The position numbers were made by a program, and so were the translations under genes. A DNA stretch of 32,447 nucleotides from Nocardiopsis halophila DSM 44494 (GTDB lineage: Bacteria; Actinomycetota; Actinomycetes; Streptosporangiales; Streptosporangiaceae), in the NCBI RefSeq assembly GCF_000341245.1, contig NZ_ANAD01000053.1, forward strand, positions 16,532-48,978. The letters are read 5' to 3'. Every line of letters starts with the position of its first letter. The first letter of the stretch is position 1. The notes under the pieces were generated by a model. It was not told where the DNA came from. It ran no database searches and worked only from the letters and a program-made list of their open reading frames with translations. Of this stretch, positions 1-6,812 are shown in pieces.

Positions 1-501
1 CGGCGCCACCGGGTCGACCACCGACCACCACGCGGGGGCGGCGGCCAGGAGCACGGCTCCGACGGCGATGAGCACCGCCTGGCCGGCGGTGCGCTCCAGC
101 ACCACCGCGCGCACGCCGGCGCCGAGCGCCCCGCTGCGGCGGCCGTGGTCCAGGGCGCGGTGGACGTCGCCGAGCACCCCCGTGGGAAGGACCGCGTTCA
201 GGAACAGCGAGCGGTAGTAGGCGGCGACCGCCGGGCCGGTGCGCAGGCGCAGTCCCAGTGCGCGGGCGACCAGGACCCACCGGCGCGCGCTGAGCAGGGT
301 GGTCGCCGCTCCGACGGCCAGGGCCGCGGCCACCGCCAGGGCGGCGGGGCCGGCTCCGACGCCGCCCAGGGCCGCGGCCACCGCGCCCAGGTCCAGGCGC
401 CAGGCGACGATCCCCAGCAGCGCTGCCGCCGCGACGATCCGCGCCCACGGCCACAGGCCGGCCGGTATCCCGGCGCGCCGCCGCCGTTCAGGTCCGGTCA
501 C
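1..501 (-). CDS. Lysylphosphatidylglycerol-synthase/flippase-type membrane protein, partial (UPF0104)
   Basis: This is the N-terminal part of an integral membrane protein; the 3' end lies outside the window and about 167 codons are visible. After a basic N-terminus it shows hydrophobic segments and the family hallmark block YYRSLFLNAVLPTGVLGD followed by a VVLERTAGQ segment, as in the lysylphosphatidylglycerol synthase transmembrane (AglD/YbhN-like, PF03706) family. Members include lipid flippases and other membrane glycolipid-associated proteins of unknown substrate. I chose the GTG at 501 because a GGGGG tract lies 7 nt upstream and the GTG overlaps the stop of a small upstream reading frame as GTGA. 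An in-frame ATG at 555 is the alternative. It follows the methyltransferase gene on the same strand after roughly 450-570 bp, so it may belong to the cyclohydrolase operon or have its own promoter. The family call is strong; the substrate is unknown. Confidence 0.72.
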   Translation of the reverse strand, partial: MTGPERRRRAGIPAGLWPWARIVAAAALLGIVAWRLDLGAVAAALGGVGAGPAALAVAAALAVGAATTLLSARRWVLVARALGLRLRTGPAVAAYYRSLFLNAVLPTGVLGDVHRALDHGRRSGALGAGVRAVVLERTAGQAVLIAVGAVLLAAAPAWWSVVDPVAP

Positions 502-626
502 GTCCGTGCCCCCGTCCGGCCCTCCGCCCCGCGAGCGGAGGCGGAAGGCCACCATGATGCCACCGCCCGGTGCACCGATCGCCCCGTTTCGCGAATTTCC
601 ATGGTCCCCATGCGTGCCCCGCTCAT
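498..626 (-). CDS. Possible 42-aa coupled small ORF
   Basis: A short frame of 42 codons starts at an ATG with a GGAGG tract about 11 nt upstream. It ends in a TGA that overlaps the proposed GTG start of the membrane protein as GTGA. That arrangement would allow translational coupling. The peptide is basic and has no motif I recognise. It could equally be chance in this GC-rich sequence. Confidence 0.22.
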   Translation of the reverse strand: MSGARMGTMEIRETGRSVHRAVASWWPSASARGAEGRTGART

Positions 627-1073
627 TCCCCGTCGCTTCCTCCCCGGCGGTTCACTCCCGGGCCCGTACCGCGGCCGTACCCGCACCGTCGGCGCCGGTC
701 CCACCCCCTGAGTTCCGTCCGACCCGCGATCGGTTCGGATCCGGGTCCGGCCTCCGTCTGCAGGAACGACATCCCGCGAGGCCTGAAGGGGTGGCGATCA
801 CCTCGTTCAGAGGAACACCGCCTCCGGGGCCGCTGCCGAGCCCGAAGCACCGACCGGGGCGGCGGACCGCGCCCGGCGCGGAGGCCGCCGCGTCCGAAAA
901 CCCTGCCGCATGCATCGGCGGAACTTCCGACGGCCGTGGGCGGCCCCCGGACACGGCCCTCAGCCGCCCAAGGACGACATGCACACCGGCCCGGTCTCCG
1001 GTGGCGACCGGGCCCCGGCTCCCGGCTATCGAGCTCCCGGCTGTCGAGGCCCTATCTCCTCGGCACCTCCGCC
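627..1073. other. Intergenic stretch, no gene recognised
   Basis: This gap of about 450 bp separates the methyltransferase stop from the membrane-protein region. Open frames across it are low-complexity Pro/Arg/Ala/Gly translations with no family resemblance, and I see no credible gene. It is long compared with the other junctions of the operon (overlaps to 23 bp). It may hold a promoter for the membrane protein, but I cannot point to one. Confidence 0.5.
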
Positions 1074-1931
1074 TCACATTCGTCCGCCCCCTCCGTCGTC
1101 CGGCAGGGCGAGGAGGTCACGGTGGTGCACCTCTACGTGCAGGTCTCCGTCGGCGCACTGGGACCGGCGGCGGTCGAGGTAGTCGCGCGCTCTCACGCCC
1201 AGGTCCGGGCGCTGCTCGACGGCCGCCGCCACCCATCCCTCCAGCCACGCGGCGGCGAGGGCGCGCAGGTCCGGACCCAGCCGCCAGGGGCTGTCGCGGA
1301 CCAGGACGTGCGCGCCGGCTCCCGCGAACGCCTGTGCCACGGCCCCGGGAGCGTCCGGCCCCAGCAGCGTCCGACCTCCCGACTCCCGTCTCTGGTGCGC
1401 GTTGAACGCCGCCTCGATCTCCCGGTCCAGCGGCTCCTCAGGGGCCAGGACCACCCTGCCCGCCACCGAGAGGGTGAGCAGGGCCGGGCAGCGCGCACCG
1501 GTGCACGCGGCGACCAGCGCGTAGGCCTCGTCGGTCGTCAGCACGTCCAAGAGCGCCGAAGCGGTGACCAGGTCGGCCCCGCGCAGGTCGGACCCGGTAA
1601 GGACGGTGAGCTCGGCCGTGCGGGTCTCCACGGTCACCGGTCGCCCGTCCGCCGCCGCGGAGGGCGGGCCGGCCCGCGCGCGCCGGAGCAGGTCCTCGTC
1701 GCGGTCGTAGACCACCCAGTGCTGCGGACCGGGAAGGATCGGCGCCGTCCAGCGGGCCATGGAGCCGGTACCGCCTCCCAGGTCGCACACCAGCAGCGGC
1801 GCACCGTGCTCCGGTCGGCGCAGGAACCGGCCGGCCTCGGCGGCCAGGCCGCGGTGGCGCGCGGCCGCGTCGGCCGGCTCCCGCAGCGCCAGCCAGTCCG
1901 GAGCGAACCGCCGCGTCCCCGGTGCGTTCAT
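1074..1931 (-). CDS. Class I SAM-dependent methyltransferase
   Basis: The 285-aa protein has a class I Rossmann methyltransferase core. Motif I is the glycine-rich DLGGGTG at residues 50-56 (SAM binding), followed by an acidic VVYDRDED stretch near residues 73-80 that would bind the ribose of SAM. A LVTASALLDVLT segment resembles the post-strand 4 motif. The ATG lies inside an ATGA overlap with the glycosyltransferase stop upstream, so the two are probably translationally coupled. As the seventh gene of the cyclohydrolase operon it would methylate the pathway product or an intermediate. The substrate cannot be read from sequence. The C-terminal half (about residues 150-285) is less conserved in appearance and may form the substrate lid. 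Confidence 0.85.
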   Translation of the reverse strand: MNAPGTRRFAPDWLALREPADAAARHRGLAAEAGRFLRRPEHGAPLLVCDLGGGTGSMARWTAPILPGPQHWVVYDRDEDLLRRARAGPPSAAADGRPVTVETRTAELTVLTGSDLRGADLVTASALLDVLTTDEAYALVAACTGARCPALLTLSVAGRVVLAPEEPLDREIEAAFNAHQRRESGGRTLLGPDAPGAVAQAFAGAGAHVLVRDSPWRLGPDLRALAAAWLEGWVAAAVEQRPDLGVRARDYLDRRRSQCADGDLHVEVHHRDLLALPDDGGGGRM

Positions 1932-3055
1932 CGCGCCCCCTCTGCCGCCGCCCGGTCGCCGTGGAGCAGTTCCAGGACCCGGGCCATGTCCGCGGCCGCG
2001 CTCCTCCAGGAGCGCAGCAGGGCCCTCCGCTCGCGTGCGGCGGTCCGCAGGCCCACGCGCAGGGCCCCGTCGCCCCACCACCGTCCGAGAGCCCCCGCGA
2101 GCGCCAAGGCGTCCCCCGAGGGGACGAGGAGGCCGGCCACCCGGCCGCCGGAGACGCGGCCGACGGTCTCGGGCAGCGCCCCCGCCCCGCTCACCAGGAC
2201 CGGGATGCCGCGTGCCAGCGCTTCGGACACCACCATGCCGTAGGTCTCCGCGCGGGAGGGCAGCACCACCAGGTCGGCGCGGGCGAACTCCCCGTCCAGC
2301 GCCGAGGGGCCCAGCGCGCCGGTGAAGCGGACCCGGTCCCGGATGCCGTGCCGTTCGAGCCGCTCCTCGACCCGTTCGGCGAATGTGGGGCGCGAGGGGC
2401 CTCCGGGGGAGGCCGCCTCCGAGGGCTGGGGGCCGGCCATGACGCACGTCCATCGCCGGTCGCGGTTTCGGCCGAGCGCTTCGGCGAGCAGGTCCTGTCC
2501 TTTGCGCGGGGTCACCGCCGCCACGCACAGCAGCCTGGAGGCGCCGTCGGTCCCGGGCGCCAGGGGCGCACGGTCGGTGCCGGGCTCCACCGTGTGGACC
2601 CGCGCCGGGTCGAGCCGGTGGCGCCGTGCGATGTCCCGCGCCGCGTGGCCACTGGTGGCCACCACCCGGTCCGCCGCGCGCAGGACCGCCCCCTCCGCTC
2701 GCTCGTACGCCTCCGCTCGCTCAGGGCGCAGCCCTCCCTCGTCCGCAAGGGGAAGGTGGACGAGGACCGCCAGGCGCAGCCGGGCCGCCGCCGGGGCGAG
2801 CACGTCGGGGACGCCGCAGGCCACCAGCCCGTCCACCAGGACGGGGGTGCCGTCCGGAAGCCCGTCGAGGGCCCGGGACAGCCGCGCGCGCTCGGCGCCC
2901 GAGGGATCCGGCCAGGCACCGTCCAGCGGGAGTTCACGCACCGGCATCCCCACGCGCGCCGACTCCTCGGCGATGCGCCGGTCGTACCGGTTCCCTCCGC
3001 TGGGCGCGGCCGGGTCGCCGATGCTCCCGGGAACGATGAAGACCGTCGTGCTCAC
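1928..3055 (-). CDS. Glycosyltransferase family 4 (GT-B fold)
   Basis: The 375-aa protein is a retaining-type GT4 enzyme that would transfer a sugar from a nucleotide-sugar donor. The C-terminal donor-binding domain carries the EX7E motif (E270 and E278 in [17 protein letters not shown]), preceded by a typical [10 protein letters not shown] segment near residues 181-190. The N-terminal domain has the [11 protein letters not shown] loop (an acceptor-side glycine-rich loop) and a [12 protein letters not shown] stretch. No transmembrane segment is evident, so it is cytosolic or peripheral. The GTG start overlaps the PTPS-like gene stop by 4 bases (GTGA) and the stop overlaps the methyltransferase ATG by 4 bases. 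Acceptor and donor are unknown. Together with a CDP-alcohol phosphatidyltransferase and a flippase-type membrane protein, the context suggests a glycosylated and possibly lipid-anchored product, which is inference. Confidence 0.87.
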
Positions 3056-3450
3056 AGCGACCGCTCATAGCTCGCCCACGCGACGTGGGACTCGTGGAGG
3101 GTCACCGCCAGGCCGTCCAGCCCGCGCGCCCCCTCCCCCAGCTCGCCGGCCTCGATCCGGGCGGCGAGCCGGTCGGCGACCACCTTGGCGAGGTACTCCG
3201 TGGTGGTGTTGACGCCTTTGAAGGCCGGATCGTCGTCGAGGTTGCGGTAGTTCAGTTCGGCCAGGACCTCGCCGAGCCGGGTGGTCGCCAGTCCGATGTC
3301 GACGACCACCCCGTCGCCGTCCAGCTCGGCGCGGCGGAAGGCCGCGTCGACGACGAAGGTGGCGCCGTGCAGGGCCTGTGCCGGTCCGAAGACGTCGCCG
3401 CTGAAGCTGTGCGCGGCCATGAAGTGGTCGCGGACGGTGACGCTGAACAA
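3052..3450 (-). CDS. 6-pyruvoyl-tetrahydropterin synthase/QueD-fold protein with degenerate active site
   Basis: The 132-aa protein has the length and layout of the PTPS/6-carboxytetrahydropterin synthase family (T-fold): an AAH zinc ligand (H14), an LHGATF block (H28), a central LNYRNLDD region, [15 protein letters not shown] matching the PTSE-helix, and a C-terminal LHES acid region. By eye against E. coli QueD, several key residues are missing. The HGH motif is HGA, so the third zinc His is lost at position 30. The catalytic Cys four residues before the first His of HGH is Ala24. The LDHH catalytic His is replaced in LNYR. The retained glutamate (HES) would still bind a pterin or pyrimidine ring. 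The start is TTG at 3450, chosen because GAGGAGG lies 5 nt upstream. It sits 23 bp after the dehydrogenase. It may bind or transform a cyclohydrolase II-derived pyrimidine rather than dihydroneopterin triphosphate. Confidence 0.8.
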
Positions 3451-3473
3451 GGGTTCCTCCTCAGAGGCGGGGG

Positions 3474-4448
3474 TCAGGGGTAGGCGATCCGGTGGCAGAG
3501 GGCCGGGACGGTTCCGTCCGCCAGGCCCCGCATCGTCTCGGGCAGTTCGTCGAAGGGGCTCTCACCGCTGATGAGGGCGTCGTAGGCGGGGTCGGAGAGC
3601 AGGTCCAACGCCAGCGCCAGGCGGTCGCGCAGCGTCCGGCGCGCGCTGCGGGCCGGGGACACCCTCCCCACCTGGCTGCAGCGCACCGCCAGCCTGCGGG
3701 GGTGGAAGGCCTCTCCCAGCGGAACCCGCACCTGCCGGTCGCCGTACCAGCTCAGCTCGATCACCTCGCCCTCGGTCCCCAGGAGTTCCAGGGCCCGGGA
3801 CAGCCCCTCCTCCGAGGCGCTGGTGTGGAACACCAGGTCGCATCCGCCCTCGGCGCCGCCGGGCGCGGCGAAGGGGACGCCCAGCCGTTCGGCGACGGCG
3901 GCCCGTGCGGGGTCGGTGTCGACCAGCTGCAGGCGCACCCCCGGCAGGGCCGCCAGCAGGCGCGCCGTACAGCCGCCGACCATGCCGGCGCCGACGACGC
4001 AGACGCGGTCGCCCACCCGGGGCGCGGCGTCCCACAGGGCGTTGACCGCGGTCTCCACGGCTCCGGCGAGCACCGCCCGGCGGGCGGGCACCCCGGGCGG
4101 GAGCGGCACGACCGCGTCAGCCGGGACGACGTAGCGGGTCTGGTGCGGGTACAGGCAGAACACCTCGCGCCCGACCAGGTCCGGCGGGCCCTGCTCCACC
4201 CGCCCGCTGTTGAGGTAGCCGTACTTGACCGGGCCCGGGAACTCGCCCTCCTGGTGGGGCGCCCTCATGTCCGCGCTGAGGGCCTGCGGGACGCGCCCGT
4301 TGAACACCAGAGCCTCGGTGCCGCGGCTGACCCCGGTGTACAGGGTGCGCACCACGACGTCACCGGGGCCCGGTTCGGCAAGCCCGACGGGACGGATCTC
4401 CCCTTCGCCCGGAGCGTTCACCCAGAAAGCGCGCGCTGCGCGTTCCAC
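3474..4448 (-). CDS. MDR-superfamily (zinc-type) dehydrogenase lacking the catalytic Cys
   Basis: The 324-aa protein has a medium-chain dehydrogenase/reductase architecture: an N-terminal GroES-like domain and a nucleotide-binding Rossmann domain with GAGMVGG at residues 153-159 and an acidic LVDTD end of strand 2. At the position where zinc alcohol dehydrogenases have the catalytic Cys of GICGTD, this protein has TGVSRGTE (Ser41). The four-Cys structural zinc loop is also absent. That pattern resembles the BchC-like MDR branch. It probably oxidises or reduces an intermediate of the operon's pathway with NAD(P)(H). A GTG start at 4448 is chosen because a GGAGGG site lies about 8 nt upstream and the gene begins 4 bp after the preceding stop. 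Substrate unknown. Confidence 0.82.
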
Positions 4449-4452
4449 CTGC

Positions 4453-5295
4453 TCACCCTCCGTTCGCCCCGGGGCCCGCCTCTGTGGCCGCCCATGGTGC
4501 GGCGCTCGTTCCGCGCCCGTCGCCCCGGCACCCGTCCGCGCCTGCACGGCGCGCGCGCCACAGCCACAGCACGTCCCGGCCGAAGGACCAGGCCAGCAGC
4601 GCGAGTGCGCCCGCAGCCGCCGCGGCCGCCGCGAACGGGGGCAGCAGACCGCTGACGACCGCGATGAGCGCCACCGCCTGCACCGCCGCCACGGCCTTGC
4701 GCGCGGTGCTCGGCGGGAGTCCGGCGCCGAGCCAGGGGGCGAAGCGCGCGGCCGCGCCGAAAGCGTAGCGTGCGCCGCCGATCGCCAGTGTCCACAGGCC
4801 GAGCAGGAACGCGGCGTGCACGCTGAGCACCAGGATCAGGAAGGCGTCGACCTCCATGTCGAAGCGGGCCCCGAGCCGCGATGCGGTACCCGTGCGCCGG
4901 GCGACCGGCCCGTCGACCCCGTCCATGGCCAGCGCCACCGAGGCCAGGACCGCCGCCGGCCAGGGGTCGGCGGGGCGGCCGGAGGCGGCGTCGGCGACCA
5001 GGGCGGCCACCCCGCCCACCAGCACAGCGCGGGCCAGGGTGACGCGGTCGGCCGGGCGCATGGACACCGCACCGTCGCGCCGCAGCGCGCGCGCCAGCAG
5101 CGCCCACAGCGCGAGCGCATAGGCGCACCCGACGGCCCATCCCGCCGCTCCGAGCCCGACGGTGGACGCGATCAGGGCCAGCAGCACGGGCTGGGCCGCG
5201 GCCCCCAGGGCCGTGCCCCACCACGGCCCCGGCCGCAGGTGCGGTCCGGGCCCGGCGATCGTGCGGGCGGGGATCTCACAGACGCCCATAAGCAC
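4453..5295 (-). CDS. CDP-alcohol phosphatidyltransferase family membrane enzyme
   Basis: The 280-aa protein carries the complete CDP-alcohol phosphotransferase signature D-x2-DG-x2-AR-x8-G-x3-D-x3-D at residues 125-150 (D125, D128, G129, A132, R133, G142, D146, D150). Several hydrophobic membrane segments flank it (about residues 28-70, 88-103, 112-124, 151-176 and 198-232). Such enzymes displace CMP from a CDP-activated alcohol with a second alcohol, as in phosphatidylinositol or phosphatidylglycerol phosphate synthesis. The start is GTG at 5295, 6 nt after a GGAGG that lies inside the end of the phosphatase gene; an ATG at 5289 is the alternative. It overlaps the phosphatase by 20 bases. 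Being adjacent to an inositol-phosphatase homologue it could be a phosphoinositol or polar-headgroup enzyme, but its placement in this operon suggests a specialised lipid. Confidence 0.87.
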   Translation of the reverse strand: MLMGVCEIPARTIAGPGPHLRPGPWWGTALGAAAQPVLLALIASTVGLGAAGWAVGCAYALALWALLARALRRDGAVSMRPADRVTLARAVLVGGVAALVADAASGRPADPWPAAVLASVALAMDGVDGPVARRTGTASRLGARFDMEVDAFLILVLSVHAAFLLGLWTLAIGGARYAFGAAARFAPWLGAGLPPSTARKAVAAVQAVALIAVVSGLLPPFAAAAAAAGALALLAWSFGRDVLWLWRARRAGADGCRGDGRGTSAAPWAATEAGPGANGG

Positions 5296-6106
5296 GCTTC
5301 ACCTCCGCCATCAAGGCGTCGCGGACGCCGGGGGCGAGGGCGAGGGTCGCCTCGGAGTCCACGGTGTGCTCGGAGCCGTCGCGGTCCAGGACGGCCCCGC
5401 CGGCCTCGCGCACCAGCAGCACGCCGGCGGCGGTGTCCCAGGGGCGGTTGGCCAGGATCAGCGCGGCGTCCAGCCGGCCGTGCGCGGTCCAGGCCAGGTC
5501 GGCCGCAGCGGTACCGAGCATCCTGATCCGCTGCACCCGCGCCCCGAGCCGCCCCAGCAGCTCCAGGCGCACCCGGTTCTTGGCCTCGGCGCCCGGCCCC
5601 ACGGCGAAGTCGCCGACCGCGACCATGGCCGCCCCCGGGTCGGCCGTGGCGGCCGCGTGCAGCCGTTCGGCGCCGCAGTAGGCCCCTACCCCGGACGCCG
5701 CCGAGTACGCGGCGTCCAGGAAGGGGAAGTCGATGGCGGCGGCCACCGCGGTCCGCCCGTGCACCAGGGCGACGGTCGCCCCGCACAGCGGGATTCCGCG
5801 GGCCAGGTTGGCGGTGCCGTCCACGGGGTCGACCACCCAGTAGGGCGCGTCCCCTCCGGCGCCGGTGCGGCCGTGCTCCTCACCGAGCACGCCCAGCCCG
5901 GGCGTCTCGCGGCCCAGGAAGTCCCGCAGCGCCTCCTCCACCGCCAGGTCCACGTCGGTCACCATGTCGCGGTCGCCCTTGGCGGCGACCGAGCGCGGGG
6001 CCCGGTCGGCGATGATGCGCCGGGCCAGGGCCGCCGCCTCGCGCGCGACCGGGAGCAGGTCGGCCCCGTCGGCCGTCGCGCCCGGCCGGGTCCCGTGCTC
6101 AGCCAC
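5276..6106 (-). CDS. Inositol monophosphatase-family phosphatase
   Basis: The 276-aa protein is a Mg-dependent, lithium-sensitive-type phosphatase of the IMPase/FBPase superfamily. All metal-binding motifs are visible: GEEH at residues 75-78, DPVDGT at 93-98, and WDTAAG at 223-228. Family members hydrolyse inositol-1-phosphate, fructose-1,6-bisphosphate, histidinol phosphate or 3'-phosphoadenosine 5'-phosphate. In this operon it could dephosphorylate a ribose 5-phosphate intermediate made by the cyclohydrolase (inference). A similar phosphatase step occurs in riboflavin synthesis, though with other enzyme families. The GTG start overlaps the cyclohydrolase stop by 8 bases, and the 3' end overlaps the phosphatidyltransferase gene. 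Confidence 0.88.
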   Translation of the reverse strand: MAEHGTRPGATADGADLLPVAREAAALARRIIADRAPRSVAAKGDRDMVTDVDLAVEEALRDFLGRETPGLGVLGEEHGRTGAGGDAPYWVVDPVDGTANLARGIPLCGATVALVHGRTAVAAAIDFPFLDAAYSAASGVGAYCGAERLHAAATADPGAAMVAVGDFAVGPGAEAKNRVRLELLGRLGARVQRIRMLGTAAADLAWTAHGRLDAALILANRPWDTAAGVLLVREAGGAVLDRDGSEHTVDSEATLALAPGVRDALMAEVKRAYGRL

Positions 6107-6812
6107 GGCGGCCCCCGCCCGTCTGCGCCGCCCCGCCGGAGGTGTCGCTCCCGGGACGCCCGTTCACGCCCTCCGCGCCGCCCACGGCCTCGACGCCGTC
6201 GAGCTGCGGGAGGTCGTGGCCGAGCCGGTCGCGCTTGGCGGTCAGGTAGGCGAGGTTGCCGCCGTGCGCGGGCGCCAGCAGCGGAACGCGCGCGGCCACC
6301 GCCAGGCCGTGCGCCTCCAGCGCCTCCACCTTGTCGGGGTTGTTCGACATCAGGCGGACGGAGGCCACCCCGAGGTGGCGCAGGATCCGGGCGGCCGGGC
6401 CGTAGTCGCGCACGTCGACCGGGAACCCCAGGGACGTGGCCGAGTCCACGGTGTCCAGCCCCTGCTCGTCCTGGAGAATGTGGGTGCGCACCTTGGCCAG
6501 CAGGCCGATCCCGCGCCCCTCGTGCCCGCGCATGTAGACCAGCACCCCGCGGCCCTCGGCCGCGATCGCCTCCAGGGCCGAGTCGAGCTGCTCGCCGCAC
6601 TCGCAGCGGGTGGCGCCGAAGACGTCCCCGGTCAGGCACTCGGAGTGGACGCGGACCAGGACCGGCCCGCCGTCCGCGACGTTCCCGCGCACCAGCGCCA
6701 TGTGCTCGCCGTGGGCCCCGGGGTCGCGGAAGGCCACGGCCCGGAACCGGCCGCGGCGGGTGGCCAGGTCGGATTCTGCGGTCTCCAGGTGCGTTCCGTC
6801 GTGATCAGGCAT
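6099..6812 (-). CDS. ribA-like: GTP cyclohydrolase II-like enzyme, Tyr-to-His active-site variant
   Basis: The 237-aa protein is clearly of the GTP cyclohydrolase II (RibA) family. The zinc site is HSECLTGDVFGATRCECG (C59, C70, C72), followed by YMRGHEGRGIGLLAK and the SNNPDKVEAL segment near the end of the domain. GCH II opens GTP, removes formate and pyrophosphate, and gives the riboflavin precursor pyrimidine. Aligned by eye to E. coli RibA, the catalytic Arg128 is kept (R135), but Tyr105 of KIRAYALQD is His111 in KVRTHILQD. The DTVEAN block is DTVDSA. From memory, a Streptomyces coelicolor paralogue with Met at this position releases the formylated pyrimidine, so this enzyme may also have an altered product. 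A Gly-rich tail of about 30 residues follows the domain. The ATG at 6812 has GGGGAG 5 nt upstream. It is the first gene of the operon and has no ribB/ribE neighbour. Confidence 0.88.
   Translation of the reverse strand: MPDHDGTHLETAESDLATRRGRFRAVAFRDPGAHGEHMALVRGNVADGGPVLVRVHSECLTGDVFGATRCECGEQLDSALEAIAAEGRGVLVYMRGHEGRGIGLLAKVRTHILQDEQGLDTVDSATSLGFPVDVRDYGPAARILRHLGVASVRLMSNNPDKVEALEAHGLAVAARVPLLAPAHGGNLAYLTAKRDRLGHDLPQLDGVEAVGGAEGVNGRPGSDTSGGAAQTGGGRRG

Follow-up and report, generated by a model that had tools for sequence, protein, structure and literature searches.

A conserved Nocardiopsis operon with a predicted role in making a glycosylated, methylated compound from GTP

The window analysed here, i.e., a whole stretch of 32,447 nt on contig NZ_ANAD01000053.1 (C53) of Nocardiopsis halophila DSM 44494, carries at positions 1–6812 a seven-gene operon and an adjoining flippase-like gene, in which a GTP cyclohydrolase II is combined with a PTPS-like protein, a phosphatase, a dehydrogenase, a glycosyltransferase, a methyltransferase and a CDP-alcohol phosphatidyltransferase. 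The pathway to which these genes belong is real and conserved, and modules akin to it occur in two phyla of bacteria as well as in haloarchaea. Our reading, held with about even confidence, is that the operon encodes a dedicated pathway from GTP to a glycosylated, methylated and probably phospholipid-linked compound, the reactions and the product being what we infer from the enzyme families. The pathway occurs in many soil bacteria and some salt-loving archaea.

Gene content and conservation of the operon

All eight genes are located on the minus strand, at the coordinates given in the initial annotation. Six of them were assigned by Pfam matches above cut-off, and the MDR-superfamily dehydrogenase and the methyltransferase, which remain below their Pfam cut-offs, by predicted fold. 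The genes are listed here together with a creatininase-family gene from outside the window.

6099..6812, minus strand: GTP cyclohydrolase II, extra non-RibBA copy with His in place of E. coli Tyr105 (PF00925 GTP_cyclohydro2, 218 bits)
5276..6106, minus strand: inositol-monophosphatase-family phosphatase, an optional member (PF00459 Inositol_P, 155 bits)
4453..5295, minus strand: CDP-alcohol phosphatidyltransferase, motif intact (PF01066 CDP-OH_P_transf, 47 bits)
3474..4448 (alternative start 4547), minus strand: MDR-superfamily dehydrogenase, BchC-like (TIGR01202 bchC, 54 bits, cut-off 291; predicted fold)
3052..3450, minus strand: PTPS-IV protein by signature, ortholog of SCO6650 (PF01242 PTPS, 87 bits; PDB 3d7j, E 6.7e-63)
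1928..3055, minus strand: GT4-family glycosyltransferase (PF00534 Glycos_transf_1, 87 bits)
1074..1931, minus strand: class I SAM methyltransferase (below Pfam cut-off; predicted fold)
1..555, minus strand: N-terminal part of a flippase-like LPG_synthase_TM membrane protein, the gene continuing past the window edge (PF03706, 46 bits)
C53:15397-16110, plus strand, opposite to the flippase-like gene: creatininase-family gene, outside the window (PF02633, 209 bits)

In the order of transcription, the intergenic gaps are –8, –20, +4, +23, –4 and –4 bp, followed by +518 bp before the flippase-like gene, in agreement with the earlier statement that seven genes are spaced by at most 23 bp. These values are based on the dehydrogenase start at 4448, since the start at 4547 would give a 95-bp overlap with the CDP-alcohol transferase gene. 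Both the seven-gene operon and the flippase-like gene are real. A single N at C53:16531, directly adjoining the window on the outside, disrupts the flippase-like frame in the assembly, and the corresponding gene of a relative (L199) runs uninterrupted over 373 amino acids. Scanning the window for Rfam families and tRNA genes yielded no matches.

Conservation was followed in 80 named loci, i.e., the best 80 of 532 confirmed matches in a scan of named genomes, a sample that is biased to near relatives and in which some loci end at contig ends; family presence was called by tblastn at 1e-6. The dehydrogenase and the PTPS were present in all 80 loci, GT4 in 79, the methyltransferase in 77, the CDP-alcohol transferase in 75, the flippase-like protein in 72, the cyclohydrolase in 67 and the creatininase-family protein in 55. 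These seven genes without the creatininase (and the phosphatase) occurred together in 60 of the loci, and eight including the creatininase in 51. With Nocardiopsis, Streptomyces, Actinomadura, Micromonospora, Amycolatopsis, Pseudonocardia, Phytohabitans and Planotetraspora among the genera represented, the families co-occur far beyond chance and in many genera. The co-occurrence that the initial annotation had put forward as a check on its proposal was thus found beyond the genus, with the order MDR-PTPS-GT4-methyltransferase on one strand in 76 of the 80 loci, and also beyond the phylum; the exception is the inositol-phosphatase, which is not a core member (11 of 80).

Sampling more widely, an SCO6650-type PTPS was found in 151 of 295 Streptomyces genomes, and a phylum-wide sample of 396 genomes gave PTPS matches in 10 genomes at E ≤ 1e-34 and in 72 at 1e-10, some of the weaker ones presumably belonging to different PTPS types. 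In a distant family of this phylum (f31), MDR-PTPS-GT4 recurs at 32–40% identity in six loci, which also hold RibD_C, FolB and a methyltransferase unmatched by that of the window; a cyclohydrolase is linked in only one of the six. An acyltransferase-family gene lies nearby, beside RibD_C and FolB (L167-L170, L174, L175), and two of these loci, L169 and L170, appear to have GT4 and methyltransferase joined in a single reading frame of 640 aa.

Among plasmid records, the PTPS matched 20 and the dehydrogenase 29, including Rhizobiaceae, Methylosinus, Rhodobacterales and Thiodictyon, and haloarchaea for the dehydrogenase. A region of the A. tumefaciens pAt plasmid holds genes for a flippase-like protein, CDP-alcohol transferase, GTP cyclohydrolase II, MDR, PTPS, GT4, methyltransferase, RibD and cytochrome b. 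A Peteryoungia module is similar, a Palleronia module adds an inositol-monophosphatase-family gene, and a Microbacterium module combines CDP-alcohol transferase, MDR, PTPS, GT4, methyltransferase, an LPG-synthase-type membrane protein and RibD. In Haloarcula pelagica, genes for CDP-alcohol transferase, GTP cyclohydrolase IIa, MDR, PTPS and methyltransferase are consecutive. Judged by their matches to the window proteins, the genes of these modules are homologous, although for the methyltransferases of haloarchaea the support is weak (E 9e-7 and 9e-5). Cytochrome b stands beside RibD in the Agrobacterium, Peteryoungia and Thiodictyon modules (L210:11165-12544, L213:10219-11582, L209:11528-13142), a hint of an extra redox step there.

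Cyclohydrolase type, the creatininase-family gene and RibD_C

The PTPS-like protein of the window has one PDB match at E 0.01, i.e., 3d7j ('Uncharacterized protein SCO6650'), over its full length and with an E of 6.7e-63. In an S. coelicolor-like genome (L191), a PTPS identical to 3d7j except for its first residue is encoded in the order CDP-alcohol transferase, MDR, PTPS, GT4, methyltransferase, flippase, creatininase, cyclohydrolase. Counting from SCO6650 suggests that this cyclohydrolase is SCO6655, and the intermediate tags, such as SCO6654 for the creatininase-family protein, were derived likewise. SCO6655 is listed as a GTP cyclohydrolase II (PMC2853524), and SCO6652, the methyltransferase by this count, goes up in the second mycelium (log2 of 0.8, 4.3 and 4.1 at 24, 48 and 72 h; PMC3610822). 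In Nocardiopsis, the SCO6650/SCO6655 locus of S. coelicolor has its counterpart in the window cluster. In the work of Spoonamore, Bandarian and co-workers (2006, 2008), SCO6655 reportedly releases FAPy, the formylated pyrimidine, because Met has taken the place of its Tyr, and SCO6650 is said to be without Zn and without PTPS activity. A second extra GTP cyclohydrolase II gene of the S. coelicolor-like genome adjoins a two-domain RibD-type gene (L201:2355-6703); with a putative glycosyltransferase and a putative MFS transporter as further neighbours, this may be another GTP-derived cluster.

The type of each cyclohydrolase was read from an alignment at the position of E. coli Tyr105, which we take to be the deformylation Tyr of GTP cyclohydrolase II. 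The 67 cyclohydrolases of the 80 loci carry Met (42), His (12), Tyr (12) or, in one decayed copy, Ser. The Tyr is replaced by His in the window protein (RTHIL, vs. RAYRL in the RibBA copy of the same genome) and by Met in the S. coelicolor-like genome, so that the window cyclohydrolase would fit the SCO6655 class and is predicted to release FAPy.

Cyclohydrolase type went together with the creatininase-family gene. This gene accompanied 53 of the 54 Met/His loci vs. none of the 12 Tyr loci among the named loci, several Tyr-type loci being short or cut on one side. The lone exception lies on a cut contig and has its creatininase gene on another contig of the same genome. With further relatives added, the gene stood beside 61 of 61 Met/His types vs. 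0 of 17 Tyr types, a count in which the window and L051 were scored as positive (the gene being outside the window in the former and on another contig of the genome in the latter), and from which two loci were left out, i.e., L104, which has Ser in a decayed cyclohydrolase domain and no creatininase, and L033, which shares its contig with L051. A Met-type cyclohydrolase with creatininase was also found on an S. fungicidicus plasmid, and four proteobacterial Tyr-type loci gave no creatininase match. Whole-genome searches of 11 genomes with a Tyr-type cluster cyclohydrolase returned a relative with 57% identity or more in a single case (G444); the other genomes gave either no relative or matches of 34–40%. 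In a tree, the Met types and the His types form separate groups. Taken together, the pairing is suggestive, but not statistically shown.

The creatininase-family protein itself scores 209 bits against PF02633, and at all six candidate ligand positions the residue is the same throughout the 56 aligned rows, i.e., it has the creatininase fold and the conserved candidate ligand residues expected of an ArfB/BrbF formamidase. BrbF of Sinorhizobium, which is annotated as a creatininase, is an FAPy formamidase that removes formate (PMC9478397). The formylated intermediate allowed for in the initial annotation would then probably be transient, as the Met/His cyclohydrolases go with this gene outside the window.

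The initial annotation had missed a further gene, i.e., that of a RibD_C reductase, which is linked in 27 of the 80 loci (12/12 Tyr, 11/42 Met, 0/12 His and four others). It also occurs in each of the six f31 loci and in 8 of the 13 plasmid records. The best model for the Micromonospora-type RibD_C is the archaeal 2,5-diamino-6-ribosylamino-pyrimidinone phosphate reductase (121 bits, cut-off 186). In the source genome, a RibD_C gene lies elsewhere, adjoining a gene read as a separate deaminase, so that the reduction step would here be shared with riboflavin synthesis. In the Pseudonocardia loci L066 (13815-15194) and L104 (14184-15515), RibD_C is fused to the cyclohydrolase, the cyclohydrolase domain of L104 looking decayed, and a histidine-phosphatase-family gene is situated upstream of the fusion genes.

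Predicted route and its alternatives

The gene families can be arranged into a route of seven steps, for which the order of the last four is likewise what we infer. A special GTP cyclohydrolase II would open GTP while retaining the formyl group, with FAPy as product, and the creatininase-family hydrolase would release formate to yield 2,5-diamino-6-ribosylamino-4(3H)-pyrimidinone 5′-phosphate; in the Tyr-type lineages, one enzyme would perform both ring opening and deformylation. The RibD_C reductase would then convert the ribosyl to a ribityl chain with no deamination, thereby keeping the 2-amino group, and a phosphatase would take off the 5′-phosphate. Subsequently, the MDR dehydrogenase may oxidise the side chain, and PTPS-IV, with one Zn ligand missing, may bind the 2-amino-pyrimidinone and close or rearrange it to a pterin-like ring. 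As a conjecture on the chemistry, oxidation of the ribityl chain might give a 2′-keto compound as from an Amadori step, which PTPS-IV might close to dihydroneopterin. Finally, GT4 and the methyltransferase would decorate the ring, the CDP-alcohol transferase would attach the phospholipid, and the flippase-like protein would move the product. The best reading of the ring product is a 2-amino-pyrimidinone or a pterin.

The motif states are in line with such a route. The window PTPS bears FGPAQ, and FGPA[QR] occurs in all 80 named loci (with the exact Q in 76); by this signature the protein is a PTPS-IV. Glu120 is retained and HGA replaces HGH in 80 of 80 loci, the six f31 proteins keeping HGH. 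We take the Glu to be the ring anchor and HGH to be Zn-site residues, so PTPS-IV, lacking the normal Zn site, should still be able to bind a 2-amino-4-oxo ring. The CDP-alcohol transferase motif DxxDGxxAR(x8)GxxxDxxxD is present in the window protein and 75 of 75 relatives, and the acceptor of the enzyme may be the GTP-derived compound. The E-x7-E motif of GT4 is found in 78 of 79 relatives. The dehydrogenase (predicted fold with mean pLDDT of 86) matches MDR folds at the family level only and resembles secondary-alcohol and polyol dehydrogenases; the methyltransferase has a predicted class I fold (mean pLDDT of 93) with structure matches likewise at the family level only. The families co-occur as originally proposed; that they combine ring chemistry starting from GTP with the transfer of sugar, methyl groups and a lipid headgroup would be a plausible extrapolation.

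Eight full-length named loci are without a linked cyclohydrolase, and five of these are in genomes with a single strong cyclohydrolase match, taken as RibBA (a 28-bit fragment in G440 was not counted). If the pathway runs in such genomes, the ordinary pyrimidine, already deformylated, must be its starting point. Together with the cyclohydrolase/creatininase pairing, this points to 2,5-diamino-6-ribosylamino-4(3H)-pyrimidinone 5′-phosphate as the probable branch compound.

Several observations weigh against the proposed route from GTP to a phospholipid-linked product. The cyclohydrolase/creatininase pairing rests on one independent contrast (starred branches) or two (all branches) and has no statistical power, and Micromonospora marina, of the Tyr type, has a 57% creatininase relative away from the cluster (L198:7196-7912), on another contig where no other cluster genes were found nearby. 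Against the curated ArfB model NF033501, the creatininase-family protein scores 32 bits (cut-off 180), and the model of MftE, the mycofactocin protease, scores higher with 139 bits, also below its cut-off (172). RibD_C is unlinked in the source genome and in all 12 His-type named loci. The Methylosinus and SC52 records and the six f31 loci have no CDP-alcohol transferase or flippase match, indicating that some modules do without the lipid link, and a lone PTPS gene exists on the linear plasmid of Streptomyces anthocyanicus (L218). This PTPS-IV-like gene (L218:8001-8426) adjoins a MEKHLA-domain gene, no other cluster gene being matched there.

The modules without a lipid gene suggest an alternative in which a pterin or pyrimidine glycoside is made in free form, serving as cofactor, signal or photoprotectant, and the CDP-alcohol transferase and flippase-like protein serve another lipid or export. 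The f31, Methylosinus and SC52 sets indeed retain MDR, PTPS and methyltransferase (and GT4, except for SC52, with none in the stretch), and cyanobacterial pterin glycosides (PMC13259868) and a pteridine glycosyltransferase from Chlorobium (PMC5683033) are known. Nevertheless, we consider this alternative unlikely, since the CDP-alcohol transferase is encoded in 75 of the 80 named loci, with the catalytic motif in 75 of 75, and recurs in the Agrobacterium, Thiodictyon, Peteryoungia, Microbacterium and Haloarcula modules. The model scores of the creatininase-family protein raise a different question, i.e., whether FAPy itself is the branch compound, with this protein opening a cyclic acylguanidine ring, cleaving a peptide-like bond or similar. 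Creatininase hydrolyses a cyclic amide (PMC9478397), and the MftE and creatininase models, at 139 and 101 bits (the latter also below cut-off), exceed ArfB at 32 bits. The absence of the gene from all 17 Tyr-type loci lowers this reading, and the five loci in genomes with only the presumed RibBA speak against it as well, making FAPy a decidedly improbable branch compound.

Ordinary riboflavin, F420 or queuosine synthesis is a highly improbable role for the cluster. It would be suggested by GTP cyclohydrolase II and RibD_C being riboflavin-type enzymes, by the frequent annotation of such PTPS genes as 6-carboxytetrahydropterin synthase, and by a 2016 review that mentions PTPS-IV, as unpublished work, as involved in archaeal F420 synthesis (PMC5041015). 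However, the source genome (6.3 Mb in 299 contigs) has two GTP cyclohydrolase II genes, the second of which encodes a 434-aa RibBA on another contig, between genes read as RibE and RibH, and Pfam found no RibB, RibE or RibH among the eight operon genes. With RibBA in a separate rib operon, the window cyclohydrolase is an extra copy, as the initial annotation had supposed in calling it probably not housekeeping, and a housekeeping riboflavin role of the cluster is rejected. A queuosine or deazapurine role is rejected as well: QueC (PF06508) had no match in the source genome, the control search being positive in 12 of 14 genomes, and the CxxxHGH/CxxxxxHGH motif of QueD, PTPS-I and PTPS-II is absent from the window PTPS, which has HGA and no Cys in the stretch and scores 37 bits against the NCBIfam QueD model (cut-off 89). 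A relative genome (G004) does have QueC, adjoining its second, different PTPS gene. A role in F420 synthesis is disfavoured, since 10 of 10 Streptomyces genomes with no match to the cluster PTPS keep two CofD-family matches, the same as genomes with the cluster, one of the two presumably being a YvcK-type paralog. The presence of an SCO6650-type PTPS in only 151 of the 295 Streptomyces genomes argues in the same direction.

The dedicated route from GTP would propose a job for PTPS-IV and for SCO6655, which is said to stop at FAPy, with the creatininase neighbour predicting the fate of the formyl group. A GTP-derived lipid headgroup, if true, would be new membrane chemistry. In its fullest form, the proposal is that Actinomycetota, Proteobacteria and haloarchaea share a pathway to a membrane phospholipid that has as its headgroup a GTP-derived pterin or ribityl-diaminopyrimidine bearing sugar and methyl groups, with GTP cyclohydrolase I bypassed in pterin formation, the Amadori step replaced by RibD_C reduction and MDR oxidation, and the ring closed by a T-fold protein lacking a Zn ligand; that full version is unlikely. 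As S. coelicolor is genetically easy, the question of the product is directly testable.

Relation to known systems

Although the pathway is common (151/295 Streptomyces genomes, with modules in Proteobacteria and haloarchaea), no publication on the whole cluster or its product was found in the literature searched, in which coverage of subscription journals is thin. Within the literature searched, the earlier statement that no characterised pathway has this gene set stands as regards the product, but parts of the system are on record, i.e., the solved structure of SCO6650 and the published PTPS-IV neighbourhood with GTP cyclohydrolase and RibD_C. Compared with the S. coelicolor locus, SCO6650 is a full-length ortholog and the gene set recurs in the S. 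coelicolor-like genome, whereas the inositol-phosphatase gene was not found there, the gene order differs, and Met stands in place of the window's His.

FGPAQ is described as the mark of the PTPS-IV subfamily of COG0720, and a 2017 network study found PF00925 and PF01872 among the gene neighbours of a 561-sequence cluster, mostly with FGPAQ, for which the accessible text gives no product (PMC5445326). The present operon shares the FGPAQ signature and has the cyclohydrolase (PF00925) in the operon, with RibD_C (PF01872) nearby in that description but unlinked here, its gene being elsewhere in the genome. In their accessible parts, the descriptions of this neighbourhood (PMC5445326, PMC5041015) name no MDR, GT4, methyltransferase, CDP-alcohol transferase, flippase, creatininase or product.

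The pterin glycosides of cyanobacteria and Chlorobium would have in common with the present system a glycosyltransferase and a pterin-type ring, but according to the accessible text on them start from GTP cyclohydrolase I, with CDP-alcohol transferase and flippase left unmentioned (PMC13259868, PMC5683033). The first steps look most like the archaeal start of riboflavin synthesis, with GTP cyclohydrolase III, the ArfB formamidase and a RibD_C-type reductase (PMC9478397). There and in the BrbF system (PMC9478397), as predicted here, a formyl-retaining cyclohydrolase, a creatininase-family protein and RibD_C are encoded by separate genes. The cluster is nevertheless not filed there. Except in Haloarcula, its cyclohydrolase has the fold of bacterial GTP cyclohydrolase II in place of a GTP cyclohydrolase III, and the genes that follow encode MDR, PTPS-IV, GT4 and methyltransferase rather than lumazine and riboflavin synthases.

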